Positions 34,134 through 63,087 of a DNA stretch of 64,000 bases are shown here, in pieces. Made by a program: the position numbers and the translations under genes. This DNA comes from Pyxicephalus adspersus. Taxonomy: Eukaryota > Chordata > Amphibia > Anura > Pyxicephalidae. Positions within the stretch are counted from its first letter, which is position 1; each line of letters begins with the position of its first letter. Below the pieces are notes generated by a model. It was not told the origin of the DNA, ran no database searches, and worked only from the letters and a program-made list of their open reading frames with translations. Location: the NCBI RefSeq assembly GCF_032062135.1, contig NC_092859.1, positions 123,990,663 to 124,054,662 of the forward strand, read 5' to 3'.

Positions 34134-37100
34134 CTAAAACGAATAACACAAATAATGACATATGCTAATTTCAAGATTCTTCAAAGTGTCCTAGTATTGA
34201 AAAACACAAAACCCATATATGTGTGTAAAAAAAATACAAGCAGTGCCTGTGAATTTTAGCACTTAAAATTAATTATTCCTACCAAAGTTTTAGGATAAAC
34301 ACCACAGTCATTTATAAAAGGAGGATCTTTGTTATGTTGCCCATGGACAGTTAAGGGCTAGGTGTAATTCAGGCCTGTGAAGATAATCAAGTGAAGGAAG
34401 ATCCTGCACCATAAAATCACACTCTGCATGTATCCATGCTGTAGATCTTGCAAATGTATCCTTCTTAGAAGGGCCAGCTGTTGTGTAGGTCTAGTGAGTA
34501 ACTCACAATACAAGTTAGGCACTGGAGGATATATAACAAAGTAGAAAGCAAAATATTCAATAACCTTTCTTGAGGAATGCCTTTATTTGTATTAAAAAAA
34601 AAAAAAAACTTGCACGACTGTATAATGCATAAATTGCACTATTCTATAACGTACCAATATATGGACAATTATGCAATAAAAAAAAACAATTGATCAAGTG
34701 TATCCATTAATAAAAATATAATTGCTTGTGTGATGAGCAACTGAATTTACAGTCACCCTTGACAGAAATATAGGTTTATACAGCAACAGTAGAAAGTAGA
34801 AAAGAGATACTTATCAAGCAAGCATGAACTCCCTTTAGTGGATCGCACATTCAATTAGCTGGTGAGTGATCCCTCCATAGTTCCCATAAGTCACATAGGT
34901 AAAAAATATCATTAGCAGTAAAAAACAAAACAGTTAAAGCATATGCATTTATGCTTCTTCAGCTATTTCAGTTAAATAACACTGTAAATGTGTGACAACC
35001 TGTATTTTTCCTTACCGATAAGTTGACTTTTCTTGATCATATAGAGGCAGTGGAGCAGCTTTAGATGCAGTTACTGGAACCGTTATAGGTTTGGGTGCAA
35101 CTTCTGGGGCCTAGAATAGAAAGATAAAAAGTAAATATGTGTTATTTAAATTAACTTGCCAAGTCAAAGATAAAAACAGAAGAAAGTTTGTTGCCATGTT
35201 TTTTTCTGTGGGATCAGTTAGCATTTTCCAAAAAAATAGGTTCTAATGGAAGAGCAATTGAAAGCCCTATTATACACAATTCTTGCAGAATTCTGTTAAA
35301 GAAAATAAAGCGTGCAAATGTCCACTGAACTGACATGCAGAGCAGAGATTCCGTTTTGTATTATTTTTTACTTAAAAGCTTTATTTTCTGTCTAAAAAAA
35401 ACAAGGTAAACAGTGTACATATGCCAAAACCAAATTTTAGTTCCTTTTAAGTTTTTTTTGTAACAGATGCTATAAAAGTGTCTCATAAAAATGCATAACT
35501 AATTAAAGTGGGTACCTTTAAAACAGATACATCATTAACGTCCTTGTTCTTTTCTCCTTGAAGCGTTCTTTTGTTCTCAAACATTTTGACTCTGGTAAGG
35601 ACAGACTGTGGTTTCATGGCTGGGTCATCATCATCTTCACTTACAGAGGCTGGTGCAGGAACAGGCTTACTGTTGGTTGGCAGAAGATCAGACTTTATCT
35701 GAGTTGGAGGAGGCATGGTTTCTGCTCTAGGAGAAAGATCATATTGCCCTTGTTTTGTATTAAATCCCTGGGAAGGACTATGGTCATAGCCTCTTGGATG
35801 TTGATCAAAATAAGGTTTTGTTTCAGCAGCCCTTGAGGTGGGCACAGAAGGAAAGCTTTGAGGCTCTGGTTTAAAACGGATATGCATATCATATTCTGTA
35901 GGAGGGGGCTCCTCATAATGTACTTGGGGTGCTTTGTAGTTTTTAGCTGGTCGAGGTCGGTTGTCATAGGCAACAGGAGGAGCCTCTTCAAAACGGGGCT
36001 GTTGTGGGAAATAGCTGCGTTCAAGGCTTTCTTCTGATTGCTGCCTCACACTGAAGTCCCTATGCTTACCATCAAACTGTGACCTGGATGAATACGGCTG
36101 TTTATCATCATAGTAACCCCACTGATCATCATAAGTAGGCACGTGATCATCACTATGTATTCGAGGGTCATAACCATGAGGGTACTGATCCACGTATTCT
36201 GAAGCAGATTCATATCTGTAAGTCGAATCATACTCTCTATTCATTGGTTTTTCTGCATAGGATGGAAGGGCATCAAAGTTCAGGGAGCTTTCTTTCTCTG
36301 GCCTCTGATGGCTAAGCACTTGTTGTTTCATCAAGTAGTTGTGCCTAGGATTATCTTCTATGGAATATGGCTCTTTTCTATAAACCTGGATGATAAAAGA
36401 AGGCTCTTGGTTAATATTCAGGAAAAAAATATATTAATATAGGATAATGGAAATGAAGTCAATTCAAAGCAGTGGCCACAAGATGGCAGCAAACAAGCAG
36501 TATTTGCATTCTCTAAGGATGAAGCAGTGCTGGACACATGGAAGAACACTTCAAAGTTTTGTTTTCAGCAATGTGATTTTTTTTTTTTTTTTTTGCAACA
36601 TAAAAGACAACATTTATAGTGAGTTGGTTGATATATGAAGTTAGAAAGGAAAGCATGCAGTACTGGAAAGCCATGCAAGAAAAAAGCAAAAGTAAACCCC
36701 CAGTTGATTTAGATGCAGCATAGTGAACTGCTCCAAATTTCCAATGTCTGACTACCTTTGTTACTGCAGGCACCTGACCAAAACGTTATCATGGTTCAGG
36801 TACTTGCAGTAAGGCAAGGTTGAAGAAGAAGGTGTTAAAGAAAGAAGAATCTCAGATGCAAGTATGACTGGAAGTAGAACAGACTGGTGCAACAATGTAG
36901 CACAGGTACCTTTGCTGGATCTATGTGCACAGGTAAAGATGAAGGCTCTTGGTCTCTTAGCATTATGTGAGCTGCCTCAGTGTTTGGTGATCGCATTGGG
37001 CCAGCTTGTGCTTGGTAAGAGCTGTATGGGGCAGGGTTGGGATCCTCCAATCTGACATTACTTAGATTTACATTAGGATTTACAGCAGCGGTTGAACTTG

Positions 37101-40100
37101 CAGTGTTTGTTTCAGACGGCAGAGAAAGGTAAGGGGCAGCAGGTAAGGCGTCTGCTTTCTGTGGAGTGTGTAAAATAATGTGTTCACTTTAAACAGCACA
37201 AAATAAAGCAATCCAAACGTCACAGCAGTCTTGTAGGAAGTGCTTTAAAACTACTGATCTAAACAGCTTACACTTTGTAAAAGCATGCACACAAAGAAAG
37301 AAAAACATCTAATTATTTTACATATTACAATACAACTAAGCTAGCCAAGCATAATATAAATTTAGAACATAAAAATTGTTAACATGTACAATATTGAAGT
37401 GTTTACAAATACAGTTTAACCCTAAGGAAAATACATTTGCCAGTCCACAAACACAATAAATACCATTCAAATTAGAGCATTTAAGTATCTGAATGTCAAT
37501 ATTTCCCACGTTCTTTACATTCTTTAACCTTAACTAGGAAAGCTCTCTTACTAAAAATGTTGGTTGCCTATTACATTGGTTCAAACACTTTTTGGCTGAA
37601 TTGACATGAGTGCTCACAAAGGATCTAGCTGGTGGCTGCTCTGCCCCTGTAACACCAGCTATTACAAGCAGCAAACATTTACACCCCTGGATGAATCAGA
37701 GCTCTTTCCACTAATGATGGCAGGGAGTAAGAGCAGCTGGAAAGTAGTAGGTATGTAGATGCTCCACGTAAATCACTAATCTGAAACAAGTGCACATAAG
37801 GGCATTTGATGATCCTCTGACTTGACTATTCGCAGGTTTGTAATGAGTTTACAGTATTGGGGGATTGAGATTATTAGTATTGAGATTAAGCAAATTTCCT
37901 TTTTGTTTTTTGCTTCCTTTCTTCATATTTCTCCCTTAGTTCAAGAATTTATTAATGGAATGCAAAGGAAAACAGTGCCTTGGTGGAAAGGACTACTATT
38001 CTTTTATAATAATAAAAAAAGGGAGAGAGAATACATGGGCACGACCCCATTCCTTCATGCAAAATTGCAGAGTTTAGCCTGGTTTCAGAATAGCCTGTAA
38101 AATAACAGACTACAGAAGACAAATTAAGGACCATGCAATGCCACTTCAGGAAGACCTGAACCCTGACTTGTTTGGGGTTAATCCAAAAAAACAGAATACC
38201 AATACAGTGTTCTCTTCAGTCCCTTTTAGCGGGGTGCAACCACCAACAGCTTTAAAAAAAATTCTGGGGAGAATACTGCAATACATTTTTTATTAAGTCT
38301 ACATGTCATGATATGGCCTACTCTAAGTCATAACCTATGTAAGTAAGACCTAATGGGGTGTGACAAAATCTACCCAATATCTATTTAGGAAAATCTGCAC
38401 TCACAAATTATGATAAAATGTTAGAAATTAGCTTCGAGGTATAGTAGATGCTACGGCCTATGTGTGAACCTTAGGAAAGAGCCACTACTTTTTTACCAAT
38501 TCCTAGGTAAGGTGGTTATAAGTTATGTAAAACTTTTTTTTTTTTTTTTTTTTTTTACCTTAGTTACCTAAACTTCTACTTTTCAGATGTTTTAAATTAG
38601 AAGTAAATACCATGTATCAGGCATACTTGTGCATTAAAGAGAAGAGTAAGACTTAGGCACTTTATTCATACTCAAAAAGAAGCATGCACAAGAGCTAAAC
38701 CGGACCTACCTGTTGAGATGGAACATTTTTATATCCCGGAGAATCAGTTCTGATGATCGGCTGTGGCTGCTGTGGGAAAGATGGGTAGGCTTGGTTTTCC
38801 TGATGTATTCCCGAACTGTCATCCCGGACAGGTTCAGACGAGCGAGTAATGGCAGACTCTGGGGGAGTCCCTGCCTCGTCATTGAGCGTCTCATCCAGAT
38901 CTTGGTCAGTGTAAGCCCCTCCTTCTGTGTCTGTATCTTCATAGTCTGAAGTGTGCCTGCTATCAGTACTATACATTGAGTACTCACTACCTGGAGCTGA
39001 TAAGTAGGATAGACGGTCGTCATGCAAATCAAGATCATCATCTGTGCCACCTTCTGCCTGCACCGAATGAAGTCAAGTTAGACCAAGTTAGTAAATCTAC
39101 ATCTGGAATCCTTGCTGGAGAAATCCAGGATTTTATTTACTTTATAGATAGCTTTCTAAAATCCACACGGATGTCTGGACATCTTTTCTTACTAATGAAT
39201 GTGCTGCAAACTATACCCAGCCCTCAATATTATTCCAACAAATCATGGCTACATAGTGTTTCATTGTATGTACAGCTATTGGAATATATGATGGTTCTAA
39301 AGGTTTAAAACATTTGCTAAACACACAGGAATATGTTCTTGTCAAAAATTAAAACACCTTCAGCAAGACAGTGTTAAAAGTTAAAAAAAAACACTTAAGT
39401 GTCAGTTTTACTGTGCATCACATCTAAATCAAAGGCCATATGAGCGGTTTCATACATTTGCAGCTTCTGTAAAGTGAATTCCAGGCACTGCATTCTAGTG
39501 AGTATGCTGAAAACATTGCCACAAACTCATGCACTGATTTAGTAAAACTGGGAGAAAATCTTACTTTGCCTTCTGAGACCCAAACCAGCTGGTTCTGTTG
39601 TTGCTGTACAGCTTCCTTCAGGGCTCCATACCAGCCATCATTCATAGAATTAAGATTAATGTTTGCTGTCAAACAAGACGTGAAAAAAAATATATATAAT
39701 AATAAATAATAGAAATAATTAGGTTCTATCAGAACTGTGTATCATGCCAAATAAATCTTAAAAATCAAAAAAAAAAATGTAAATTACTAAATGTAAACAA
39801 AAGTAGCATATGTAGGAAAGCACTGCAACACTGATTTTTTTTTAAAACAATTAGGATTTGTAATAAAATGACATTTTTATATTTCAATAGAAACATCAGG
39901 ATTAACAAAAATATTGAACAACAAGAATTAGGTTGATTTCATGCTGCTTGCATGCAACTTGCATGTATGGCCTAGTAACATCATGTGACCAGAAAAGATG
40001 TCTGTCCAGATAGAAATAAGGGTACTTGCTTGTTGTTAGTGATGGAGGCTGCCATCCTTGTCTTTGCTTTACAATTACACATCAGAAACATAGATGTGCA

Positions 40101-49100: not shown

Positions 49101-52100
49101 ATTACTTTTAAGCTATAAATTATTTAACTTAACCACTCTTAGCTAGAATCCCAAGGACAAAATAGCACATAAATCATTAGATTAACTTCAGAACATTATG
49201 GTCTGACCTTGACACGCCAGATCATTCCAAGCCTATTTAAAGAGAACTACTTCTAACACAGTAACAGCAGCACTACTTCACTGCTTTAACAGCTGGAACA
49301 TATCTGCAAATATATTAGCCTGGGACATTCACTGGCAAGAAATATGAGCACTGAATACATCATTCTCCATTGTTTTGATTTACAATGAAAGTTAAAAAAT
49401 AAAAAAGTGCATGTTTTGTAAAGCAACGTTATAAGGATTATTGGCTAAATGTGATTAAGACCAATAAAAGGCCTTTGAAGGTTTTGGAATTTTAATTTTT
49501 TTGGAAGTGGTGACTTATAAGTCCACTGCAGAAAAAAAGACAGGCTCGAATGTGAGCACAAATATGTTTAAGTAATGTTTTTGAATGAAGCTGCTTTGAG
49601 ATTTTAACCTTGTTCCATGACACAGAAATTATTGAGGCTGATGGTAAAGTTGAAACAGTAAAAAAAAATAAAATAAAAAAATAACTGCTTTCTTACCTGG
49701 TAAAGGAGGCGTTTGCTTTTCTCCTTTATCAAGATCATCTGTTGCTGCTCTGGATAGGGTCGCGCTGTTTGTATTCTTCACAGGTGTGGATACTCCAGGC
49801 TTTGATACCCTATCATCTTCTTTACTCCGCGTGCTAAAAAATTGAGTATGTGTGTTATTATGAAAGTCAAAGTCTTTACTAAATTACTAAATGTTTTAAT
49901 TATTATTACACAGTATTTATATAGCACTGACATATTGTGCAGTGCTGTACAAAGTCTATAGTCAAGTCACTAGCTGTCCCTCAAAGGGGCTCACAATCTA
50001 ATGTCCCTACCATAGTCATATGTCATTACCACAGTCTAAGGCCTATTTTTGGGGAAGCTAGTTAACCTAACCCCATGTTTTTGGATGTGGAAAGAAACCA
50101 GAGTACCTGGAAGAAAACCCACACAAACACAGGGAGAACCTCCAAACTTTATGCAGATAATGTCCTGGCAGAGAGTCAAACCTGGGAGCTAGCGCTGCAA
50201 GGGCCAGAGTGCTAACCTTTAATAAGGCAAATTCATATCACAACCTACCTAGACTGGGCCTTGTTTTCTCCTCCCTTGGGAACAAAACCGCTACAAAATT
50301 GCTTATCTGTTTTACTTTTTGTTTGGCAGTATGGACTGTTGTCGACTGGAATAGTGGAATATATTTTGACAGAAAGTCCAAAAAATCACTAGGAAACCAA
50401 AGGGCTAGGCAAATTGGTAAATCTCAGATGATCGCCCAGAAAAACAAGTTAGGAAGACCGAGACAACCTATAAAAAAAACCTCTCTGCTTCAAGAAAAAA
50501 CTAGGAAACGTATCTAAGTACAAATCATGACATCTTACCATTTCCTGAATAAATCTAAAAGTGTCACTTTTCCACAAATACCTTTAAAATCCTGTACAGA
50601 CACATGATGTGCATGTTAAATTTAAAACAAACTCTAGCTTATTCAGCTGTCCTGTCATAAATAAGATTTGATGGTACAATCACAGTTAAAACCATAAGGA
50701 GGGGGGGACTCCGCAGTTACACGGTGACAAGGCTGCCAATCATTTGCACAAATTTGCTTTCATATCCGTCACTGCTTCTTCACAATTGAAATGCAATACA
50801 AGGCTCACAATGCCATAATTCTGGAAAGACAGCTCGTAACCTTGTAGTCCTTTATTAACTATAATTACAGGAAGCATGTTCCAGAAAAGATAACAACATT
50901 TTTCTAGTCAGTCAGAGTCAATAGGGAACGGGCCTGCTTGGAAAGATAAAACCAGAGATTTTTTTTAAACATGGGTGGAATGTTTTGTATGATACAATAG
51001 GCTGGCACATGAATACACTGAAAATTGTAATAAAACCACTTACATAAAACATAAAAGGCCAGGAAAAAGCAGGAATAAATCTTTTTTTTTCCCTAAATAG
51101 AGCAAAAACATGATTGTGTTTTTCCCCCTTATTTCTTGAGTTTATTCTACATTGGAAACGTGAATCAAAAATCACTGCACACAGTTATGTAAGGAGCGGT
51201 TCTCCCCCCCCCAAAAAAAAGCAATCAGGTGCTGACAATTTTCATTAGCTGTGGTGAAAGGTGTGAATAGTGAATCAGGGGTAAACATGTTCATGTGTTG
51301 CTTATTGTAATGTGTAATAATGAAGCTGAAATACACTTCAGGGCAACCTTTTCAAGCAGGCCAGTGTATTAGAGGTGATCTTAAAGTAGACCTATCACCA
51401 GGGTTTTTACTTTACATAAAAGAGTTGAACAATAAATTTATGCATTTTTAAAAATTAAAAAAAAAAAAAAAAAAGCGTAGCCCCCTCCACTGCAGCGATA
51501 AAGTCAGAAAGGGTTCAGAGCCTTCAGGAATGCTCGTGTCACACATCCCAGGAGGCTCCTAGCTGCTCCTTCTGCACATGTCCAATCTCAGGCATGCGCA
51601 GAAGGGGCTTCCTCTTCAAGGGAGACTAAATGCCAATCTCCCGCATGCATGCAAGATCAGCGCTCTTTTTCTCATTTACAGAGGGCTACATCAGCTGATC
51701 TCATGCCTGCGCAGTGCGAGAGCAAGTGACGTAGGTAGATGCCAGAAGATAAAAAAAAATGGTGGCGACCAATGCTTTCTTTGGACTCGAGATACCGAAG
51801 GAACAAAACTGGATGGTGCAGAATCTAGGAAACCTCCAAGGGGATCAACAAATCTCAAACAAATTTAAGCCTTGAATTTTATTTTTATAACATTAAGGGC
51901 AATAGATAAAAATCAAGAAAAAAAAAATTAAGTTCATGGGCAACTTATTTTGGCTTCTCTATAGCAAATGCTATAGAGAAGTGTGTCCACAAGCTGGACA
52001 TAAATTCAAATTCATTCAAATTCGTTCTGTGTTGAAAAAAATGGGAAATTACCAAACTTAACCATTGTCTTCTCTCATTTAGAATCTGACAAAATCCCAA

Positions 52101-55100
52101 GCTCATAAATAACCAAACTAAGCCTAGAAAACAGTGAAGGTGAGACACAACATGAGTGGAATGCAGAAGTGTTTGGGAGGCCTTACAGCCATCTGGATTA
52201 CTTCTAAAGACATCCCACATGGAGGAAAAAAAAGTCTCTGGTTTGTAGCCATCTCTAGTAATCAGAGATTTTTCCAGATAGTGGTGTAACTTTGATTAGT
52301 GCTTTCCTCGCATGAGAAACTACCTGAGAGGATGTAAATTTAGAGTGATGAAACACACAATGAACCATAAAAAACAATATGCTAAAAATGTGAAGAAATG
52401 ACTGCAAAATTCTTCATAGAATGCTAAACAATGGTGCCACATCTGATTAAAATGACATGTAGCAAGAATAAGGGATAGAGGCCTTATAGAATCTAGAGGC
52501 AAGGTTTGCTGCAGATAATAAAGTCAGGGTAAGGGCTGCATACCAGACTATTGCAGGATAGAATTCTGTTCAAGGTTAAATATTCAGTTGTGAACAGTAA
52601 ATAGAAGAATATCACCTCCTGAATGTGCAGGAATTATGTGGGGCTAAGCTAGCAATCTGTCTTTGTTTCTAGGTGACAACTTGCACAAAATTATAGCTGC
52701 TTTTCCCATGAGTCATGAAAGGTGTTATTGCAGCAAGTGTATGTGTTCTGGCAATGTGCTTAGATTCCCAACATCTGTGATATGTCAGGATGATGTGTTC
52801 AGTATGGATAACACCATAGCAGAAATTGTACATTTGCCCCATAGTCAAAATCAGCATATTAGATTCAGCTCACCTTTACCCATTAATCATTTGTTTCTCA
52901 ACTTCAACTAAATACACAACAAAACCACAATATTGTATGATGAGATTTTGGATAAAAATTAAAATATTTGATAAACAGGTTATATAAAAATATATGCTTT
53001 AAAACCCCCAAACACAAAACAAATACAAAATGTATATTAGGAAGTGAAGCCATCACCTGCTGTTACTGTGCTGTTGTGGAGAATGTCTGGAATGGTCTGA
53101 AGGCTCCGATCTTTGGTCAGGAGACCGTGAACGGCTGCGGCGGGGCCGGTCATGTGAACGGTTGGAATGATCTGATGTCAGCGACTGAATTTCTGAGATG
53201 TCTGTAACATAAGATAATCATCTCCTTAGGATGGGAAGGGAAATCTTTCCATTATGGATAAAGAAAAATAATTTAAAAAAAAACAGGGAAAGAGTTAGCG
53301 CTGCTGAATATATTTATTACTGTCTGTGTCTTTCTGTCTTTGTGACACCAGCTGATGTCAGACAGGAAACAAAAGAAAAATCTCCCCAATGGAGACACAG
53401 GTAGATATGAAATTATTAAACAGATTTATATAGCGCCAACATATTACGCAGCACTGTACATTAAATAGTAATTAAAATGCATAGGCTTAGACATAAGTAA
53501 ATGCCTGATTTCATCATTCATTTTAGCAATGTTACCATACCATCTCTTTCTGAAGCATTTGCAGAATGAAGGCTGTCATCTAGATCTGGGACATTCAGTA
53601 GAGTTGCTCGCTCATCCCTTTGAACTACCATTTTTAATTTGCCCTTTGACCTTTCTATTAAAGTTTTTGCATCGGACAAAGACATGTTTTCGGTGACTGT
53701 GCCATTAATCTGCAAAACAACAATGGACGGATTACTGGTTATTCATGCTTAGCGTAAATTACTTCTAAATGATTGAGTGACATACACAAAAGCCTAGATG
53801 TATTTAGTCTGTACCAAATCCTGCAAGCAAAGCATGATTCACACCGCTATCTAGAACATTGCAAATAATGTGTTCGGAAGAATGGTCTTTTGCCTTAACC
53901 AACAAATCAGTGTAGAGTCAAAATAATTCATAAACGTTAGCATGACATGAAAACAAACTAGTCCGCCTTTAAAGAAAGTTACATATTATATTAAACAAAT
54001 AAACGTTTCAAGAAATCTTCTCTGCAATCAAAAATTAGATGATGCATTTCTTTACTACGTTGCTGCAAAATAGTGTTTCCTACACAAATCTCTTAAATTT
54101 AGGTATTGGAAAAACACATTACAAATTACATGAATTTACAAATATCTCTCTTCATCAAACCCTTTTTGAAATGTCTGTTGGATTGTAACCATTGGGCTTT
54201 ATTGAAAACTGCTTGAGGTCTGGGATTTCCTGAAAGCCAGAGGTAATTATACACACCGGTATTTTCCCAATAAAATATTGCTGTTATAAGGCCTCAACTG
54301 CATGGAAAAGTCTGCAGTTCTCTTACTACAAGTGAAAATAGTCCTTAGCCGCCTGTATCGGACATTGGAATTAGGCACCAAATGCTGTGTGGTGAAGAGT
54401 TCCTGCAATATTCAGCAAAAGTTCCTGAATGAGACAAATATCTTCATTTATAGGAGGTCCCTTGTCTTTTCTAGCAATTCAGATTTATAGGGATTAGCTG
54501 TTAATCCTATACCTAACTGCACAATAAAAAAAGACCAGATTCTTAACCAAAAGGAGAACAATGACAAAATCAACCATGCCATAAACCCAACATGTAGTAA
54601 AATTACCCTACATTATGTATTCTCTATGCAGAAGATCCCAGTAAGAAAATATCAGTTTATCATTTCCTTGTGTAAAATGCTGCAGTCAGCTAATCTCCAG
54701 CCTAAAATCTGACCTCTGATAAATAGGCCTTAGGGGCAGGTCCTTGCTCTAAGTAAAGATGATATATCCCATGCCAAGGCACAGGTCATGTGGTCCAGCA
54801 CCAGAGGCAGGACAAACGAGGTGTTTAAATGAGTCCACTCAAACAGAATCTGTGTTTAGTGGCAATAAATTGATTTTGAATGTGATGAACATCTCAAAGC
54901 ATTGAAGAGCCATTCCTCATATATAGTAGCTGGGTTATCTCTGTGATATAAAGGACTGCAACTTCATGAATCTTAGCTACTGATGTGAAATCATTTTGAA
55001 GCAGGACACAGCGAGTCCCACATCAGCAGTTTTATTCCTACATTTTTCATCCATGAATGAGAGAGCTCCAGATTCCAGTAGTGCAGAAATGTAAACTCAG

Positions 55101-58100
55101 CTAGTGGTATTGATCAACATCCCTAGGAATTGTTGAGCAAGCGTCACTGCAGAAATGAAAAGACAGGCAGAGCTGTGAAACAAAGATTGCCAATAAACCA
55201 AAAGTACCCAACAAGCAGAAAAAAAGAGAAGGTGGCTCTTGTTAGCAAATAAAATGATTGCCTCTGCTTTCACCCAGTGTTAGTCAGATTTTCCAGCTGA
55301 ACTATTCACAGCATAACAAATCCTACATGCACGTATCAGATCAGATGAAGGGTATAATGATTTTCACAAGTGTAACAGCCATCAGTGTCAGGTGTACAAG
55401 ATTTCTCACAAAACGAGTATGAAGATCATAACATGGATGGGTCTACCCAGCAGGACACCAACTCTGTGTACCATACAGATGATGATTGGAGTGTAAATTT
55501 TAGTATCATTGCACTTCTGTATACACAAGCAGCCAGTTTATTGCTAATCTACAAAATATATGAGAAAAGCTTACCTTAAGCACAACGTCGCCTTCCTGAA
55601 TATTTCCATCTCTCGCTGCCAGACTATCTTGAGAGATTTCCTTTACAAAAATATGGCTGGCTAATCTTAAACCATATTCTATGAAAACAAATCATACACA
55701 AAACTGTTATTCAAAAGGTATAATAGTATAGGAATGCAACTTTAAAATGATGCAGAGGGACAATGTGGACTTCTAAAGAAATTTTTGTATTTACATCATA
55801 ACACATTTCTTGACACGTTTCGCAAAATCAGCTTCATGAGAATAACATTTTAAGGAGACTTCATATTAATTATCTTTTTCAAAAACATCTTCATATCAAT
55901 TAAATATATTCTCATCAACTTTCATTTTGAGACACTCAGTTTAAACCAACCATGAGAGTGGTGGAAACCGATATGTGCCAGTGGAGATGTAGGATTTTGT
56001 AACTTATCCACCTCTTATGTTTAACACTCAAAAAACTCTTATTCAGTTCCAAGGAGGGCTGTGTCATTCGATGAAATCTTGAGTATATGCACTTATTATC
56101 CCCTCTAAATCTCCAATAGCTTTATGCCTCCATCACTCCTTTAGCAGTAGTAGGTTTTTATATGTATATATTTTTTTATATGTTTATAGATTTTGAACTA
56201 AAATTAAAATAAAGTAAAATTAAAAAAAAAACCCTGTAATGAAACCTTTTAGGTTTGGAGAAAAGAGATAGATGTGAATTGGGTGTGGTACAAATTCACA
56301 AATCCTACCTTGAAACGTAACTAAAAAGAAAAGAAAAAAGGACAAAAGAACTTTGAATTTTTTGTTGTAGTCCCCCATGCCACTTAAGTGTGCTCATGGA
56401 GACAGAACAGTGCTTAGAGCTAACATGGTGAACTATACCACTGTTTATATTAGGAAATACAACATGAAAACCTTTTGAACATTGATCACAATCATAGTAT
56501 ACATGTTATAAAGTATTTACAAGCTTCTAACAAATCATCCCAAATTTTTTTTCCTGCAGAGTGCCCCACAACTTCCTGTCTTCTAGAAAATCAATGTTGT
56601 GCAATTAGCCATACAAGTGCTGACGACAAGAACAATTATTTAGGAACATACCTTCATTTTTTCTAGATTTCACCAAGGTCACTTTGGTAGGTTTTGGAGG
56701 TTGACTGGAAGCGACAGATCTTCTGTCTGATCTAGGCGACAAACTTCTTTCTCTGCTGGCACTTCTGTCCCTTACCCAGCTCTTCTCACTCCTCCTGCTG
56801 GCACCAGGGCCACTCTGGGCACTTCTCTGGTCAGGCACCTCATCCTCATAACTGTCCTCCTCATTTTCAGAGGCTGGCTCTGGGTCAGGACGAACCACAG
56901 GAAGCTGGACTTTTTTCTTCCGTCGTATAGTCTGGAATAGGTTGACGAGAATGGTGAAAAAAGATGCCAAGTTTCATAATATAGGAAGCTGAATTGTAAT
57001 ACAATTACTAGTTGATCCATCAACCACTATGCAAAAAATATGTGGAAAGATTAAATTAGGTGTGTTAAGCAATTTGTTTCAATGAAAATGCTGATCATAC
57101 AAATTTCAGATCAATCTGAAGCCGCAAAGCCAGTCTCATAAAAATGCTGTCAGGGTGCCCAACTCTGAACAATGAATAAAATGATGCTGAATTTATGAAT
57201 TGGCTTAAACACTGTATGTATGGTATGTATGCCAAGTTAAAATATGTACCCCTGACATAATAGACATTTTAATCTTTAAAGTGGCAAGTTTAAAGCAACC
57301 ACATAAATAACTAGAAATCAATATCTGACCCGAGCAGACACTGTCTACTTAATGCTAAACATCTCTAACAAGCTTTTCAGGAAAGGCCTAAGTAAATCTT
57401 GGACTGTCGGCATAGGCTTGGGTCAAGACTCACAGCATAAAGAAATGACAGTAAACTGAAAATTGAGGAAATAAAATAAAGAAAAAGCTACTTACAATTT
57501 TGGCATTTTTACCACTCTTTCTCAACTGTTGAACAGCAAATGCATGTTCAACGTTATCCATTGACACTCCATTGACCATTGCAACACGGTCATTTTCCCT
57601 ACAAAGACAATATAGAAAGTGTTATTATTGTTAAATATAGTTTAGTTTTAACTTTTATTGATGCATTGCAAAGGCTTTCTGAGGTACAATGAACATGCAT
57701 TTTGGCACAACTTATACAAAGGCCCCTATAGATAATACAAGAAAATGAAGCTAACAATTAGCAATTAAGTGATCAAAACCAATTAAAAAAAAACATTCCT
57801 AACAATTTCTATTTTACCAAAAAGGAGGACCTTACTGGAGTTTTTCAATACCATTATCTAAGCTTCTCCACAGGTAAATATAACAATTAAATTCAATTTG
57901 AGTATATGGCCCGAACAGCACACAGACGTTAGATCTGTCTAAAAGCAGTGGAAAAGTGTTTGCACAGGCCCCTAGCTAACCTAATTTTTCCACATAGACA
58001 TAGACATAGGCTATGATCATACTGGCCATGAGGTTGTGGTGAGGTTATCACTTCCTCAGTGTTGTTGGTAAGTTATCTAACGGCTGACAATGCAAGCTTA

Positions 58101-61100
58101 CAGGGTTGTGCTCAGGTGCACCTGGGAAAGGTGTAAAGGTGCTCTTAAGGCAGAACTAAAGTAAAAATAAAACACTAGGAAGTAGTACTATTTGGCAAAG
58201 GACACATGCAATGCAGAGCCAGCAGCCAGGGATAATTTAACTCCTGTGCACGTTACATCCTCCAATCCCGAGAAGCCTCCATGAAAGCCCACTGTGGAGC
58301 CAGCGGTGAAGCTGGAGCCTTCCATGTGTGCACCAAGAACAGGTCCTGGACCTGTCATCTATGCATCACAACTGCATAGGATAAGAATGTGCTCAACACC
58401 CATCAACAGGAGTTCTGCTCTAAGATGTTGAAATATTGTTGCTTGAAATTACAGTTACGGGTAACATTTTTACACACGATAAATCAAGCAGCGTATTGTT
58501 TTATGGAGAAAGAAGAGGGGATGATGAGGAGGTGCCCCAATGTGGGCACAACAATAGTCCTCTGTAGCAATTGGTCATTTAGTGCAGGTCGCAGACCACT
58601 AAATGCACAAACTCCAGACCGCGCATGCGCGGGGAGCCGTGTGTCACTCAAAGCGGAAGAAATTTCCCCCCGAGTGATGTCATAATGCCAGAACCCGCCC
58701 ACTCTCCTATCGTAGGTCTGAGCCTGCGATGGGACAGTGGGCAGGTTATGTCCTGACAAACAGCCTGCCCACCGCCCTGAGCCTGCCATGTCACCGGGAG
58801 ACGTGGTCTGTGGCTCTGGCTGGTGTGCCCATACCCTCCAAGTGGGGTCCTGGGGGTTGGGGACCTCTGGTTTACAATGATGACAATGATGGCAAGACAT
58901 TGCTATGCAGTGTGCAGCTTCTCCTTCCAACAGTGCAAGGTGGATAAACACCATACTGGCCAATTTTATGCATCAAATTGTTCACTATGATGACTTTGGT
59001 AGTACATAAATTACAAGCAGACTGCAGAATCTCCTAAAATGTCTTTGGTACTCTAGAGCTAAAATGTGTCAACTTAAAACAGGTCTGTCCAACTCTAATC
59101 AGAACTTTTTAGATCAACCAGGTTGGCCGAGACTCCAAGGTAAGGCAAGAAGAACTAGGAACCCTTGGGTGGTCAACTCTTACCATGGATAAATCATCAG
59201 CCTTTACTAAAAAGTGAACCTTCAACAAAGCAGCTCATGGGGTCAACAAATAAAAAAACATGTTATTGATCATCTAAAGCCAAACATGGACTGTTTGGAT
59301 ATTGATTTAATCTTCCCACCACTAATAAAAAACAACAAGAGTGTTTTTTTTTTTTTTTTTAAAGCGCTATACCACTGTTTATATTAGGAAATACAACATG
59401 AAAACCTTTTGAACATTGATCACAATCATAGTATACATGTTATAAAGTATTTACAAGCTTCTAACAAATCATCCCAAATTTTTTTTCCTGCAGAGTGCCC
59501 CACAACTTCCTGTCTTCTAGAAAATCAATGTTGTGCAATTAGCCATACAAGTGCTGACGACAAGAACAATTATTTAGGAACATACCTTCATTTTTTCTAG
59601 ATTTCACCAAGGTCACTTTGGTAGGTTTTGGAGGTTGACTGGAAGCGACAGATCTTCTGTCTGATCTAGGCGACAAACTTCTTTCTCTGCTGGCACTTCT
59701 GTCCCTTACCCAGCTCTTCTCACTCCTCCTGCTGGCACCAGGGCCACTCTGGGCACTTCTCTGGTCAGGCACCTCATCCTCATAACTGTCCTCCTCATTT
59801 TCAGAGGCTGGCTCTGGGTCAGGACGAACCACAGGAAGCTGGACTTTTTTCTTCCGTCGTATAGTCTGGAATAGGTTGACGAGAATGGTGAAAAAAGATG
59901 CCAAGTTTCATAATATAGGAAGCTGAATTGTAATACAATTACTAGTTGATCCATCAACCACTATGCAAAAAATATGTGGAAAGATTAAATTAGGTGTGTT
60001 AAGCAATTTGTTTCAATGAAAATGCTGATCATACAAATTTCAGATCAATCTGAAGCCGCAAAGCCAGTCTCATAAAAATGCTGTCAGGGTGCCCAACTCT
60101 GAACAATGAATAAAATGATGCTGAATTTATGAATTGGCTTAAACACTGTATGTATGGTATGTATGCCAAGTTAAAATATGTACCCCTGACATAATAGACA
60201 TTTTAATCTTTAAAGTGGCAAGTTTAAAGCAACCACATAAATAACTAGAAATCAATATCTGACCCGAGCAGACACTGTCTACTTAATGCTAAACATCTCT
60301 AACAAGCTTTTCAGGAAAGGCCTAAGTAAATCTTGGACTGTCGGCATAGGCTTGGGTCAAGACTCACAGCATAAAGAAATGACAGTAAACTGAAAATTGA
60401 GGAAATAAAATAAAGAAAAAGCTACTTACAATTTTGGCATTTTTACCACTCTTTCTCAACTGTTGAACAGCAAATGCATGTTCAACGTTATCCATTGACA
60501 CTCCATTGACCATTGCAACACGGTCATTTTCCCTACAAAGACAATATAGAAAGTGTTATTATTGTTAAATATAGTTTAGTTTTAACTTTTATTGATGCAT
60601 TGCAAAGGCTTTCTGAGGTACAATGAACATGCATTTTGGCACAACTTATACAAAGGCCCCTATAGATAATACAATTTATTTCAAATATTTTACATGCCCT
60701 ATAAAGCTATAATAAGTAAACCTGAACCATGAAAAACACAAAGTATCTCTGTTCAAAAGGTGTTAATGTAGCGTTCGTACATTTTCAGCTAGCCATGCTA
60801 ATGCAGTTAAAATAAAACTAAGTGTGAACTGCATATGCATGAATTACACAATAACACCTTTCCTTTTAAAGACAAGTTTTTTTCTTTACAGGTTGACACT
60901 GCCTAACTTCAAACTGCAAAGGGAACCCTGCTTTAAAGTTTGAAATGAACAGAGGCAGCATGAAGTGTTATTGCAAAATCACTAAACGAAATCAGAGCAG
61001 ATGGCAGAGGAAAGCCAGTAAAAGAAAACCATGATGCATATAGTTCTTAGAAGGTGAAGAAAGTCCGCAGATATATTAGCTGAAATAACCTTACAGAGCT

Positions 61101-63087
61101 GCACTCTTCATAATGTTTCACCAGACAAGCGGCTTTTGGCGCAGGTTCCATAGATAAACAGTTGAGATCAGAAAGTTTACTTTAGTTCTGGGGAACTGCT
61201 CTGTTCACCTATCCTGACCAGCTCTCATCTAAATTAGTATTAATAATAATGTTCCAACAGCATGTGAGGAAGAACGAAGCTTCACAAGAAAAGAGAACAC
61301 CATTTAAACAAACTGCTTCCAACATGAAATGCAAACAAACCCAGGAATAACAGATATAACAGTTCTACTCATAGCACAAATAATCATATATCAAAGCAGA
61401 CCTTAACAATTCAGATGTAGAGAGTCAGGATAAAGGGATAGTAATACGTAAACAACAATATTAGGGGTCTGCTTAACTTAACCTAACATCTTCAGTTCCT
61501 TTCATGAATATAGAATGTAAAGCAGGCCCCTACAGATGTCACAGAATTGTTACTTTAAATGTTCTGGATTTTAGTTTCCAGTGACAGATAAACAAAGTGA
61601 TAAAATGGGCACTGTACACACAGCGTCATTCTGTTCAATGAAAGGGGACTGGGAGGGAACAAGTGGTACCCCGCTGTGCTCTTCTGTCTGTGCGGTCATT
61701 TATCAATCGTTTACCACACAGGAAGAGAAAGGGGAACTCACATTTTCCATTAGTAGAGTAAGGGGAAGGCTAGAACCCCTGTCAGATTTTATTTTGCTCT
61801 GTGTGTTTTGCCTAATACGCAGATTACATATATTTTATTATTGAGTGACTCTCTTGCTATCTTAACTTTTGTTAAGCAAGGCATACATGTAAAAGCAGAG
61901 TACCTGTGCTTCTTCTTCTACCAACCACCACTCTAATCATGAGAAATATTCCTCAAAGTCTGATGAGAAACAGGCAATTTTGAGTGTTAATCTGCTGAGC
62001 CCCCCACAGCTTCCATCAGAGGAACCAGTGATCTGAAATGTTTCCAAGCCTGCTGGGGCCACGAACTGGAGTGGAATTCGGAGGCACAGAGAAGCAGAGG
62101 TAACGTATGAGTACTTTTACTGATATGCCTTGTTTGAAAAACTTTAGCAATAGGTTCCCTATAAATGACCCAATCACCATATGGTCTTTATTGAACTGTA
62201 ATAATCTATAATAATGTGAAGAAAATAAGTACCAAGGGAAAGAGCTGCTATAGCCGACATCAAACAAATGGCTGTTTGGTGGGTTGTCTCCGGCTACATT
62301 ATTGTCAGCATCTTGAATCACTGGCCGAATACAAGGCCCCTGACCAGGAGCAAATACACCCCAAGCTAGATTAAAGGAAAATCTCTGACCAACAAGTATA
62401 CATCAAGTCAGGGTAGAGCAAAATCACTAGACAAGGAAAAGCATTTACATAGCAAATTCACTGGAAAGTCCCGACCATGAACAAATACAAGCTAAGCTGC
62501 TTTGGAGCTGATCAAAAACTAATATTCCCCAAGTTAGGGTAAAGAAAAATCTCAAACTGGGAACACGTAGACCTCAAACTAGGTGACAGCAAAGGATTGA
62601 AGATTTCAAATTACCACTTTTAGAAAATCAGTTATTTCTTGCGTTGTGTGGTATTGCCATTTCAAATTTCAATTTTAAGTAACAGCTCAGAAACACAACT
62701 ACATATAATGATAAGCATCAGACTTTGCAGCTCGAGAAACAAGCTAAATATAGAGGACTATAGGACCATGCTTTACAATTATACCCAAACTGTTCAATAC
62801 TAAATATATATAAAAAAAATACAAAAGCAAATAATACTACAATACATAACCCATTATATGGAAATAAATGACTGATTTATCTAAATGTAAATAAAAACAA
62901 AGTCCATGTGAAATATATATCCTTAGGCAATATCAATACAGAAAGCAAAACAGAAAACATACTGCAGCAGGCCTTCAGCAGGTCCTCCTTTGAGCACATC
63001 GGAGATGACTATTGATGTTTCTCCACTCTGGAAATGGGGGTTGTCTCTACCTCCAGATATTGCGATCCCAAATCCAAATCCTGGGGC
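33909..63087 (-). CDS. TJP1: TJP1 / ZO-1, partial gene (21 distinct coding exons; 5' and 3' ends missing)
   Basis: ZO-1 is the MAGUK scaffold of tight junctions. By established knowledge PDZ1 binds claudin tails, PDZ2 dimerises with ZO proteins and binds connexin 43, PDZ3 binds JAM, the GUK region binds occludin, and the tail binds F-actin. The exons listed separately encode, in order, most of PDZ1, a basic/acidic linker, PDZ2, an RS-rich linker, PDZ3, SH3, a GUK-like domain, an acidic region, the alpha motif and a Pro/Tyr-rich tail. Every junction has AG/GT sites with matching phase, and the concatenation is 4112 nt with no stop. Identity to vertebrate ZO-1 is very high throughout, so ZO-2 and ZO-3 are unlikely (both also lack the alpha motif). 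The first exon here starts mid-PDZ1, so upstream coding exons lie past the right edge. The tail and ZU5 exons were not found to the left. Two exons are present twice. Confidence 0.97.
35016..35110 (-). CDS. TJP1: TJP1 coding exon: tail, short exon
   Basis: This 95-nt exon encodes [20 protein letters not shown] and LYDQEKSTY with two bases of Arg carried over. Acceptor TATTCTAG, donor GTAAGG. It matches the ZO-1 tail segment before the EPQKPQ motif. Confidence 0.95.
35516..36385 (-). CDS. TJP1: TJP1 coding exon: long Pro/Tyr-rich tail
   Basis: This 870-nt exon (290 codons, phase 0 to 0) starts [20 protein letters not shown] and ends with [20 protein letters not shown] and DVNDVSVLK. Between lie repeated acidic/Tyr motifs ([20 protein letters not shown]) and proline-rich stretches. 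It is more diverged than the PDZ/GUK exons, as expected for the disordered ZO-1 tail, but both ends are strongly conserved. Acceptor CATCCAG, donor GTACCC. Confidence 0.97.
36910..37158 (-). CDS. TJP1: TJP1 cassette exon: alpha motif
   Basis: This 249-nt exon (83 codons, phase 0 at both ends) encodes [20 protein letters not shown] through [20 protein letters not shown] to [20 protein letters not shown] and DPAK. It corresponds to the roughly 80-residue alpha motif that mammals include or skip, giving ZO-1 alpha+ and alpha- isoforms in different epithelia and endothelia. Skipping here would also keep the frame. It is three codons longer than the mammalian exon as I remember it. Acceptor CTCCACAG, donor GTACCTG. 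Confidence 0.95.
38710..39057 (-). CDS. TJP1: TJP1 coding exon: acidic U6 region
   Basis: This 348-nt exon (116 codons, phase 0 to 0) encodes an acidic Ser/Tyr/Thr-rich region: [20 protein letters not shown], then [20 protein letters not shown] and [20 protein letters not shown]. Its end ([14 protein letters not shown]) matches the ZO-1 segment just before the alpha motif. The many Ser, Thr and Tyr residues suggest phosphorylation. A 28-base T run lies about 150 bp downstream in the intron (38529-38556). Confidence 0.97.
39565..39665 (-). CDS. TJP1: TJP1 coding exon: end of GUK and start of U6
   Basis: This 101-nt exon encodes [20 protein letters not shown] followed by [13 protein letters not shown]. 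It closes the GUK domain and starts the U6 region reported to regulate GUK-occludin binding. Acceptor GTTTGACAG, donor GTAAGA in phase 0. Confidence 0.97.
40493..40703 (-). CDS. TJP1: TJP1 coding exon: GUK-like domain, part 3
   Basis: This 211-nt exon encodes [20 protein letters not shown], then [20 protein letters not shown] and [20 protein letters not shown]. It completes most of the GUK fold to which the occludin coiled coil binds. Acceptor TTTAAAG is unusually purine-rich at its end but in frame; donor GTAAGT. Confidence 0.97.
41076..41158 (-). CDS. TJP1: TJP1 coding exon: GUK-like domain, part 2
   Basis: This 83-nt exon encodes [20 protein letters not shown] and IKQIIDR. The split first codon reads Arg (A + GA) where mammalian ZO-1 has Lys. 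Acceptor TCTCTAG, donor GTGAGTG, phase 0 exit. Confidence 0.96.
41279..41299. repeat. (TG)n microsatellite in a TJP1 intron
   Basis: About ten TG units between the exons at 41.1 and 41.7 kb. Confidence 0.85.
41699..41794 (-). CDS. TJP1: TJP1 coding exon: GUK-like domain, part 1
   Basis: This 96-nt exon encodes [20 protein letters not shown] and [11 protein letters not shown]. The segment FGPIADVAR sits where true guanylate kinases have a nucleotide-binding P-loop; the Gly/Lys pattern is absent, as is usual for ZO proteins, so this is a binding module rather than an enzyme. Confidence 0.97.
42476..42660 (-). CDS. TJP1: TJP1 coding exon: SH3-GUK hinge and start of GUK
   Basis: This 185-nt exon encodes [20 protein letters not shown], then [20 protein letters not shown] and [14 protein letters not shown]. 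It contains the basic hinge (U5 region) between SH3 and GUK. Acceptor TTCCTAG, donor GTATG; it enters with one base and leaves with one. Confidence 0.97.
43204..43423 (-). CDS. TJP1: TJP1 coding exon: SH3 domain
   Basis: This 220-nt exon encodes the SH3 domain of the MAGUK core, from [20 protein letters not shown] through [20 protein letters not shown] to [20 protein letters not shown]. Known work places binding of partners such as ZONAB here and an intramolecular link with GUK. Acceptor TTTTTTCAG, donor GTAAGAG. Confidence 0.97.
44334..44442 (-). CDS. TJP1: TJP1 coding exon: PDZ3, last part
   Basis: This 109-nt exon encodes [20 protein letters not shown] then [16 protein letters not shown], completing PDZ3. 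It leaves one base for the following Val codon. Acceptor TTCAACAG; the donor is GTTAGTG, which deviates from consensus only at the third base. Confidence 0.97.
45800..45950 (-). CDS. TJP1: TJP1 coding exon: PDZ3, first part
   Basis: This 151-nt exon encodes [20 protein letters not shown] and continues [20 protein letters not shown] to DQILR. GLRL is the ligand-binding loop of PDZ3, which binds JAM tails and packs against SH3-GUK in known structures. Donor GTAAGT, phase 0. Confidence 0.97.
46638..46694. repeat. Short tandem repeat (ATATCATTGTTTAACC)
   Basis: TTGCAATTATATCATTGTTT followed by AACC occurs twice and then a partial third ATCATTGTTTAACC. It directly precedes the MITE at 46.7 kb. 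Confidence 0.75.
46680..47255 (-). mobile_element. MITE-like element with long internal inverted repeat, in a TJP1 intron
   Basis: Read on the minus strand it starts TTAGCCTCCTGGGCGGTTCA and CTGCCTGGATTTATACGTC, a start I recognise as common in frog genomes, and ends near CCGCTGGTTAA. It contains the foldback at 46977-47210 and the CACTTGCCTGGTCCC motif shared with 6.6 kb. No coding sequence. Confidence 0.7.
46977..47210. repeat. Inverted repeat with arms of about 95-105 bp
   Basis: The left arm (46977-47072) carries TCTAAAAGTGGTACATT, TTCATGAAAATGTATTTTAC and GTTTGAAACACAAAATCATG. The right arm (47102-47210) carries their reverse complements, with a few mismatches and a short insertion, around a loop of about 30 bp. 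RNA from either strand would fold into a hairpin. Confidence 0.88.
47873..47978 (-). CDS. TJP1: TJP1 coding exon: linker before PDZ3, continued
   Basis: This 106-nt exon encodes [20 protein letters not shown] and then [14 protein letters not shown], a well-conserved ZO-1 segment just ahead of PDZ3. Acceptor CACTTTTAG, donor GTAAGTG. It both enters and leaves within a codon. Confidence 0.96.
48180..48490. repeat. Possible DNA-transposon remnant in a TJP1 intron
   Basis: GC-richer block starting CAGTGATAACTTGTCTAACG, reminiscent of Tigger-like ends, with no coding frame. Family assignment is uncertain. Confidence 0.3.
49697..49833 (-). CDS. TJP1: TJP1 coding exon: linker before PDZ3
   Basis: This 137-nt exon encodes a low-complexity, poorly conserved linker ([20 protein letters not shown], later [10 protein letters not shown]). 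The flanking KPGVSTPVK and KQTPPLP match vertebrate ZO-1, whereas the middle ([14 protein letters not shown]) looks lineage-specific. Acceptor TTTTTTAG, donor GTAAGA; frame continues on both sides. Confidence 0.93.
49905..50215. repeat. Dispersed retroposon-like repeat in a TJP1 intron
   Basis: Contains TTTATATAGCACTGACATAT, GGGGCTCACAATCTAATG, ACCCACACAAACACAGGGAG and CGCTGCAAGGGCCAGAGTGC, a motif order I recall from a widespread vertebrate repeat. The first part recurs at 53425-53480. Confidence 0.65.
51370..51870 (+). repeat. Second copy of the frog MITE-like repeat
   Basis: Starts CTTAAAGTAGACCTATCACC, then TTTTTACTTTACATAAAA, a run of A, CACATCCCAGGAGGCTCCTA and GCTGCTCCTTCTGCACATG. It matches the element at 411-1376 in reverse. 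It lies in the TJP1 intron between the exons at 49.7 and 53.1 kb. The end is approximate. Confidence 0.65.
53057..53201 (-). CDS. TJP1: TJP1 coding exon: RS-rich linker between PDZ2 and PDZ3
   Basis: This 145-nt exon encodes [20 protein letters not shown] followed by [20 protein letters not shown]. The Arg/Ser-dense sequence is the known disordered linker of ZO-1 and a likely phosphorylation region. The exon is locally GC-richer than its introns. Donor GTGATG leaves two bases that pair with the single leading base of the next exon. Confidence 0.95.
53425..53480. repeat. Fragment of the same dispersed repeat
   Basis: TTTATATAGCGCCAACATAT followed by TACGCAGCACTGTACATTAA matches the start of the copy at 49905. 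It sits in the short intron between two PDZ2-region exons. Confidence 0.6.
53541..53709 (-). CDS. TJP1: TJP1 coding exon: PDZ2, last part, and linker
   Basis: This 169-nt exon begins [20 protein letters not shown], the C-terminal helix and strand of PDZ2, continues [20 protein letters not shown] and ends in the linker SANASERD with one base carried over. Acceptor TTTTGCAG, donor GTATGG. Confidence 0.97.
55575..55678 (-). CDS. TJP1: TJP1 coding exon: PDZ2, first part
   Basis: This 104-nt exon encodes [20 protein letters not shown] and the following [15 protein letters not shown] is the PDZ2 carboxylate-binding loop. By known ZO biology PDZ2 mediates domain-swapped ZO dimers and connexin binding. 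It ends in phase 0 with Lys at donor GTAAGC. Confidence 0.97.
56652..56931 (-). CDS. TJP1: TJP1 coding exon: PDZ1-PDZ2 linker (copy A)
   Basis: Exact duplicate of 59586-59865, encoding the same basic/acidic/RS-rich linker with the same acceptor (CTATTCCAG) and donor (GTATG). Its exit phase matches the PDZ2 exon at 55575-55678. It could be joined to either copy of the preceding PDZ1 exon without breaking frame. Confidence 0.87.
57496..57598 (-). CDS. TJP1: TJP1 coding exon: PDZ1, last part (copy A)
   Basis: Exact duplicate of the exon at 60430-60532, with intact splice sites (acceptor TTTGTAG, donor GTAAG). It requires two carried-over bases. If spliced directly after the copy-B linker exon, which carries over only one, it is read out of frame and reaches TGA at the 26th codon. 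A functional mRNA can use this copy only if both copy-B exons are skipped. Confidence 0.85.
58141..58424. mobile_element. MITE-like element in the duplication spacer
   Basis: Begins CTCTTAAGGCAGAACTAAAG and ends GGAGTTCTGCTCTAAGATG, an imperfect inverted pair. The start resembles TTTAAAGCAGAACTAAATGC near 1370. No coding sequence. Confidence 0.55.
58555..58869 (-). mobile_element. hAT-type element fragment in the duplication spacer
   Basis: On the minus strand it starts CAGAGGTCCCCAACCCCCAG, the classical end of Charlie-like hAT elements, and contains GCCAGAGCCACAGACCACG, related to 10606-10882. The 159-codon minus-strand open frame over it is not a protein gene. The left limit is approximate. 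Confidence 0.65.
59586..59865 (-). CDS. TJP1: TJP1 coding exon: PDZ1-PDZ2 linker (copy B)
   Basis: This 280-nt exon starts in phase 0 ([10 protein letters not shown]) and ends after one base of a split Glu codon at donor GTATG. It encodes the flexible linker between PDZ1 and PDZ2: a basic start, an acidic patch ([11 protein letters not shown]), then Ser/Arg-rich sequence ([19 protein letters not shown]), the kind of region heavily phosphorylated in ZO-1. It is identical to 56652-56931. Confidence 0.9.
60430..60532 (-). CDS. TJP1: TJP1 coding exon: PDZ1, last part (copy B)
   Basis: This 103-nt exon encodes [20 protein letters not shown] and the end of PDZ1 ([12 protein letters not shown]). 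It needs two bases from the previous exon and ends in phase 0 at GTAAG. It lies inside the right-hand copy of the exact 1308-bp duplication and is base-for-base the same as 57496-57598. Being nearer the preceding PDZ1 exon, it is the copy a spliceosome would meet first. Confidence 0.9.
60675..62962. other. TJP1 intron between the two PDZ1 exons
   Basis: No exon seen. Holds the degenerate tandem repeat at 62341-62600. About 62030-62130 (CTGCTGGGGCCACGAACTGG ... AGGTAACGTATGAGTACTTT) resembles the tail end of a dispersed repeat. Confidence 0.45.
62341..62600. repeat. Degenerate tandem repeat, about 45-bp unit
   Basis: Four to six imperfect units with the recurring order ACAAATACA/AGTATACAT, CAAGTCAGGGTAGAGCAAAA or CAAGTTAGGGTAAAGAAAAA, TCTC/TCAC. 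It lies in the TJP1 intron 3' of the PDZ1 exon. Confidence 0.5.
62963..63087 (-). CDS. TJP1: TJP1 coding exon: PDZ1, first part
   Basis: This 125-nt exon begins in phase 0 after a TATAG acceptor and encodes a peptide starting [13 protein letters not shown]. The GFGF stretch is the carboxylate-binding loop of PDZ1, which binds claudin C-termini. It ends with two bases of a split Gln codon at donor GTATG. The residues GGPAEGLL fall where mammals have GGPAEGQL, a small substitution. It is the most upstream TJP1 exon in the window. Confidence 0.96.

Follow-up and report, generated by a model that had tools for sequence, protein, structure and literature searches.

An exact 1308-bp repeat of two predicted TJP1 exons is probably an assembly artefact

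Introduction

In a stretch of 64,000 nucleotides of the Pyxicephalus adspersus genome assembly (the whole stretch analysed, called the window in the following) a block with two coding exons is present twice. This raises the question of whether the genome of this frog holds two copies of the exon pair, or whether one of them was generated during assembly. Assemblies are known to gain exons falsely inside a gene, and gaps between the copies are named as a typical mark of false duplications (Genome Biol. 2022, PMC9516828). A limited literature search met no published report of the present duplication, a result on which we base no claim about what is in print.

Results

An exact, locally confined repeat

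Comparison of the window sequence with itself showed that positions 56433–57740 (copy A) and 59367–60674 (copy B; no strand is assigned to either) are identical in 1308 of 1308 bases, introns included, at an offset of 2934. This confirms the original prediction, which had claimed a match of these two segments without any mismatch. The match is maximal, as it cannot be extended by a single base on either side, and its ends are abrupt: beyond the block edges, over the 200 bases compared per side, identity is 20–55% per 20-base bin. A search of the whole assembly (1,440,300,668 bases, 1.44 Gb, in 8082 contigs) found the 1308-bp block at two places, C2:124047095-124048402 and C2:124050029-124051336, both within the window. 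The exact direct repeats listed for the surrounding 264 kb include six others, with lengths of 83–120 bp and spacings of 28–372. Apart from the block, none in these 264 kb is as long as 200 bp, which puts the 1308-bp match far beyond chance.

Exons carried by the block

Judged from its sequence, the gene carrying the block is TJP1/ZO-1, read from the minus strand. The exon at 63087–62963 (minus strand) matches solved ZO-1 PDZ1 chains, with 2h3m as the best (E 1.6e-22), and a weaker match was obtained for the Tjp2 chain 2csj (9.3e-18). Six open frames were compared to Pfam, and four of them match the PDZ model. Two of these are above the curated cut-off, namely the block's 103-nt exon (copy A, E 7.4e-6) and the exon following the block, at the start of PDZ2 (9.6e-6), and two further frames reach 22.6 and 22.7 bits, just below the cut-off of 23.2. 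No Pfam match was found for the linker frame (copy A) or for the frame 53053–53217.

Each copy of the block contains two exons with intact AG/GT splice sites, the PDZ1-end exon of 103 nt and a second one of 280 nt, all on the minus strand. In copy B these exons are located at 60430–60532 (the PDZ match was obtained on the identical copy A) and 59586–59865, in copy A at 57496–57598 and 56652–56931. The 280-nt exon is named as the putative PDZ1-PDZ2 linker from its position and frame and from the ZO-1 sequence. The preceding exon (62963–63087, minus strand, start of PDZ1) ends with two bases carried over, and the next exon after the block (55575–55678, minus strand, start of PDZ2) is entered with one. 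The exon pair itself is asymmetric in phase, with two carried bases in and one carried base out. Both the exon content of each copy and the carried bases had been given correctly in the original prediction.

Consequences for the reading frame

With a single pair in use, the exons follow in normal order and frame from PDZ1 up to where PDZ2 starts. We translated eight splice paths, each ending one base short of the end of the next exon, at 55576. Three of them are open over 203 residues and encode one identical protein: the path through the B pair, the path through the A pair, and a mixed path that joins the PDZ1-end exon of B to the linker of A. Due to the phase of the pair, a path through both pairs in order meets a stop codon 26 codons past the join. 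This path has seven stops, the first at model residue 195, in agreement with the TGA at codon 26 that had been predicted for joining the copy-B linker to the copy-A PDZ1 exon. Stops are also present when the PDZ1 exon is used twice (16), the linker is used twice (12), the linker is used alone (6), or both pairs are skipped (2), and none of the eight paths yields a new open product. A duplication at this position could thus be neutral, provided that one of the pairs is skipped, or damaging.

The original prediction had offered either a block duplicated by the assembly or a real duplication of recent date, with skipping or exclusive use of one pair as its forced consequence. These were the right alternatives and the frame argument behind them holds, but the mixed path was missed. 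Exclusive use of one pair is indeed in frame but would have no consequence at the product level, because the three in-frame paths lead to the same protein. Exons duplicated in tandem and spliced in a mutually exclusive manner are a known system, and a functional duplication of this kind has a symmetric phase, or exclusive use with a distinct product. The two TJP1 pairs resemble this system as nearby homologous exon copies within one gene, but they differ from it in that they lack divergence, have an asymmetric phase, and give no alternative product.

Spacer, flanks and junctions

The spacer between the copies (57741–59366, no strand assigned) and the right flank (60675–62300) each occur once in the assembly as a whole, in searches that skip very common words. 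The spacer shows no substantial similarity to either flank. Its matches to them are short and low-scoring, the best covering 15–20 bases on the right and 19 on the left, so that the layout does not represent two divergent alleles side by side. An arrangement of allelic contigs was rejected on these grounds, and the 0 differences in 1308 bases together with a spacer that is not allelic to the flanks likewise do not fit a false duplication of the heterotype kind. We also considered a haplotig elsewhere with the single-copy layout; the block is present at its two places only, and the searches with spacer and right flank gave a single full-length location each.

Within the spacer, a short dispersed repeat with an internal palindrome (58583–58851, no strand assigned; MITE-like is our label) is 80–85% identical to other genomic copies. 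It accounts for at least 46 further matches, the best 40 of 6819 candidates having been scored. Short dispersed stretches in the right flank give at least 42 further matches (best 40 of 208 candidates scored). The right-flank intron contains a short dispersed sequence at 61532–61689, pieces of which (about 70–155 bp, 69–84% identical) have copies on many contigs.

Of six comparisons between edges, one has 2 bases in common and the other five have 0. At copy B no target-site duplication of 3–15 bases was found at offsets 0–3, and together with the 0–2 bases shared by the edges this gives no sign of a homology-driven join. A short resemblance across the edge between right flank and copy B proved no better than that of random pairs, 491 of 996 of which reach its score. 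A T17 run (59344–59360, plus strand) is located 6 bases from the junction of spacer and copy B. Four A/T runs of at least 17 bases were counted in the 264 kb (36577–36594, 38534–38556, 51457–51474, and 59344–59360), all inside the 64-kb window and none in the 200 kb of flanks.

Gaps in the scaffold

Seven N gaps of 112–1904 bases are present in the 264 kb, and a further 50 kb of the same contig contain two (1507 and 83 bases). With nine gaps in 314 kb the scaffold is a gapped draft. The window is free of Ns and the block is part of about 84 kb of uninterrupted sequence, the gap nearest to copy B being about 6.6 kb to the right. No long homopolymer was found at the edges of the seven scaffold gaps. 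The locus shows complete coding exons duplicated within one gene, as in false exon gain; a gap between or around the copies, which is a typical mark of this class and not a strict requirement, is absent. The 250 kb read outside the window gave no exact direct repeat with a length of at least 200 bp and thus no sign that errors of this type are frequent in the assembly, although a sample of this size sets no useful limit on how often exact local duplicates occur.

Discussion

We consider it likely that the genome has one PDZ1-end/linker pair and that the second 1308-bp copy, which may be either A or B, is an assembly error of the false exon gain type. A small contig, or a fill of the block stretch, would have been placed again next to where it belongs when contigs were joined or gaps closed, leaving no Ns. 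This view is favoured by the lack of any difference in 1308 bases including introns, by the confinement of the block to this locus in 8082 contigs, and by the draft state of the gapped scaffold. It is further favoured by sharp edges that bear no sign of a homology-driven join, by the block-spacer-block layout, which is not given by a single tandem duplication, and by the damage to the frame of a conserved gene without any new open protein among the eight paths. The size of the block, which is typical of false duplications, and the existence of false exon gain as a described class point in the same direction. Contigs tend to end at long homopolymer runs, and the T17 run close to the spacer/copy-B edge was counted for an artefact, a match that was noticed after the fact; as no long homopolymer was seen at the seven gap edges, this argument gets no support from the scaffold. 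What speaks against an artefact is the lack of Ns at or between the copies, whereas gaps are typical of false duplications. In addition, a single-copy block would require two false junctions among the four, the spacer is not a divergent allele of either flank, and no second case was met in the 250 kb outside the window.

Comparison to published cases shows likeness as well as differences. In the false exon gains of PMC9516828, coding exons are duplicated within one gene of a draft assembly, as observed here, but gaps between the copies are typical there and the TJP1 copies have no Ns between them. The false segmental duplications by mis-assembly, in the form of duplicated contained contigs, that are treated by Kelley and Salzberg (2010, PMC2864568) are likewise small blocks near their origin, mostly below 2000 bp. 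There, however, they are ascribed to haplotypes and separate contigs, with a median identity of 98.1% and few above 99.5%, while the TJP1 block is 100% identical and gap-free. Its full identity is thus not what would be expected if the alleles of an outbred diploid had been split.

It is possible but rather unlikely that the two-exon block was really duplicated, very recently, and then most likely as a variant that is rare or that the sequenced animal carries in heterozygous form. Transcripts with both pairs would then be frameshifted and probably degraded, and those that skip one pair would give normal ZO-1. The gap-free sequence through all four junctions fits such an event, as do the intact AG/GT sites in both copies and a spacer and right flank that resemble ordinary intron, each present once as a whole. 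Zero differences, however, would demand a very recent origin, and the two-in, one-out phase, which stops tandem use 26 codons on, would make fixation costly. A plain tandem event would moreover give a second spacer, so that the observed layout calls for either a dispersed copy or one further event. From the sequence, which alone cannot decide, we infer that the artefact is to be weighted above the real event.

All readings other than an artefact or a real, young, probably unfixed duplication have together only a small chance. We regard it as very improbable that a real recent duplication of the TJP1 pair, segregating or fixed, provides an out-of-phase second pair that acts as an automatic poison cassette, the skipping of which tunes this tight-junction scaffold gene. 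The chance that copy B is a piece of an unspliced TJP1 transcript, retroposed into the upstream intron, is slimmer still. Retroposed copies are recognised by a poly(A) tail and a target-site duplication. On the sense strand CGCTTT and then A17 follow the end of copy B and look like such a tail, but the six bases before the A run are absent from the parent copy, a target-site duplication is lacking, there are no differences in 1308 bases, and the intron between both exons is retained together with parts of the introns that flank them. Least probable of all is a fixed duplication serving as a regulated cassette, with the pairs mutually exclusive or one of them a poison cassette for the TJP1 level. 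The three in-frame paths and the premature stop of the linear path would allow it; the in-frame paths, however, encode the same protein, regulatory sites within the block cannot differ between identical copies, and there is no sign of age.

If the second copy is an artefact, as we favour, gene models of TJP1 and copy-number calls based on this assembly would be in error at the duplicated exons, and the locus would be an example of gap-free false exon gain that is missed by gap-based filters. A real duplication would offer a natural experiment on the way in which cells splice past conserved coding exons that are duplicated out of phase.
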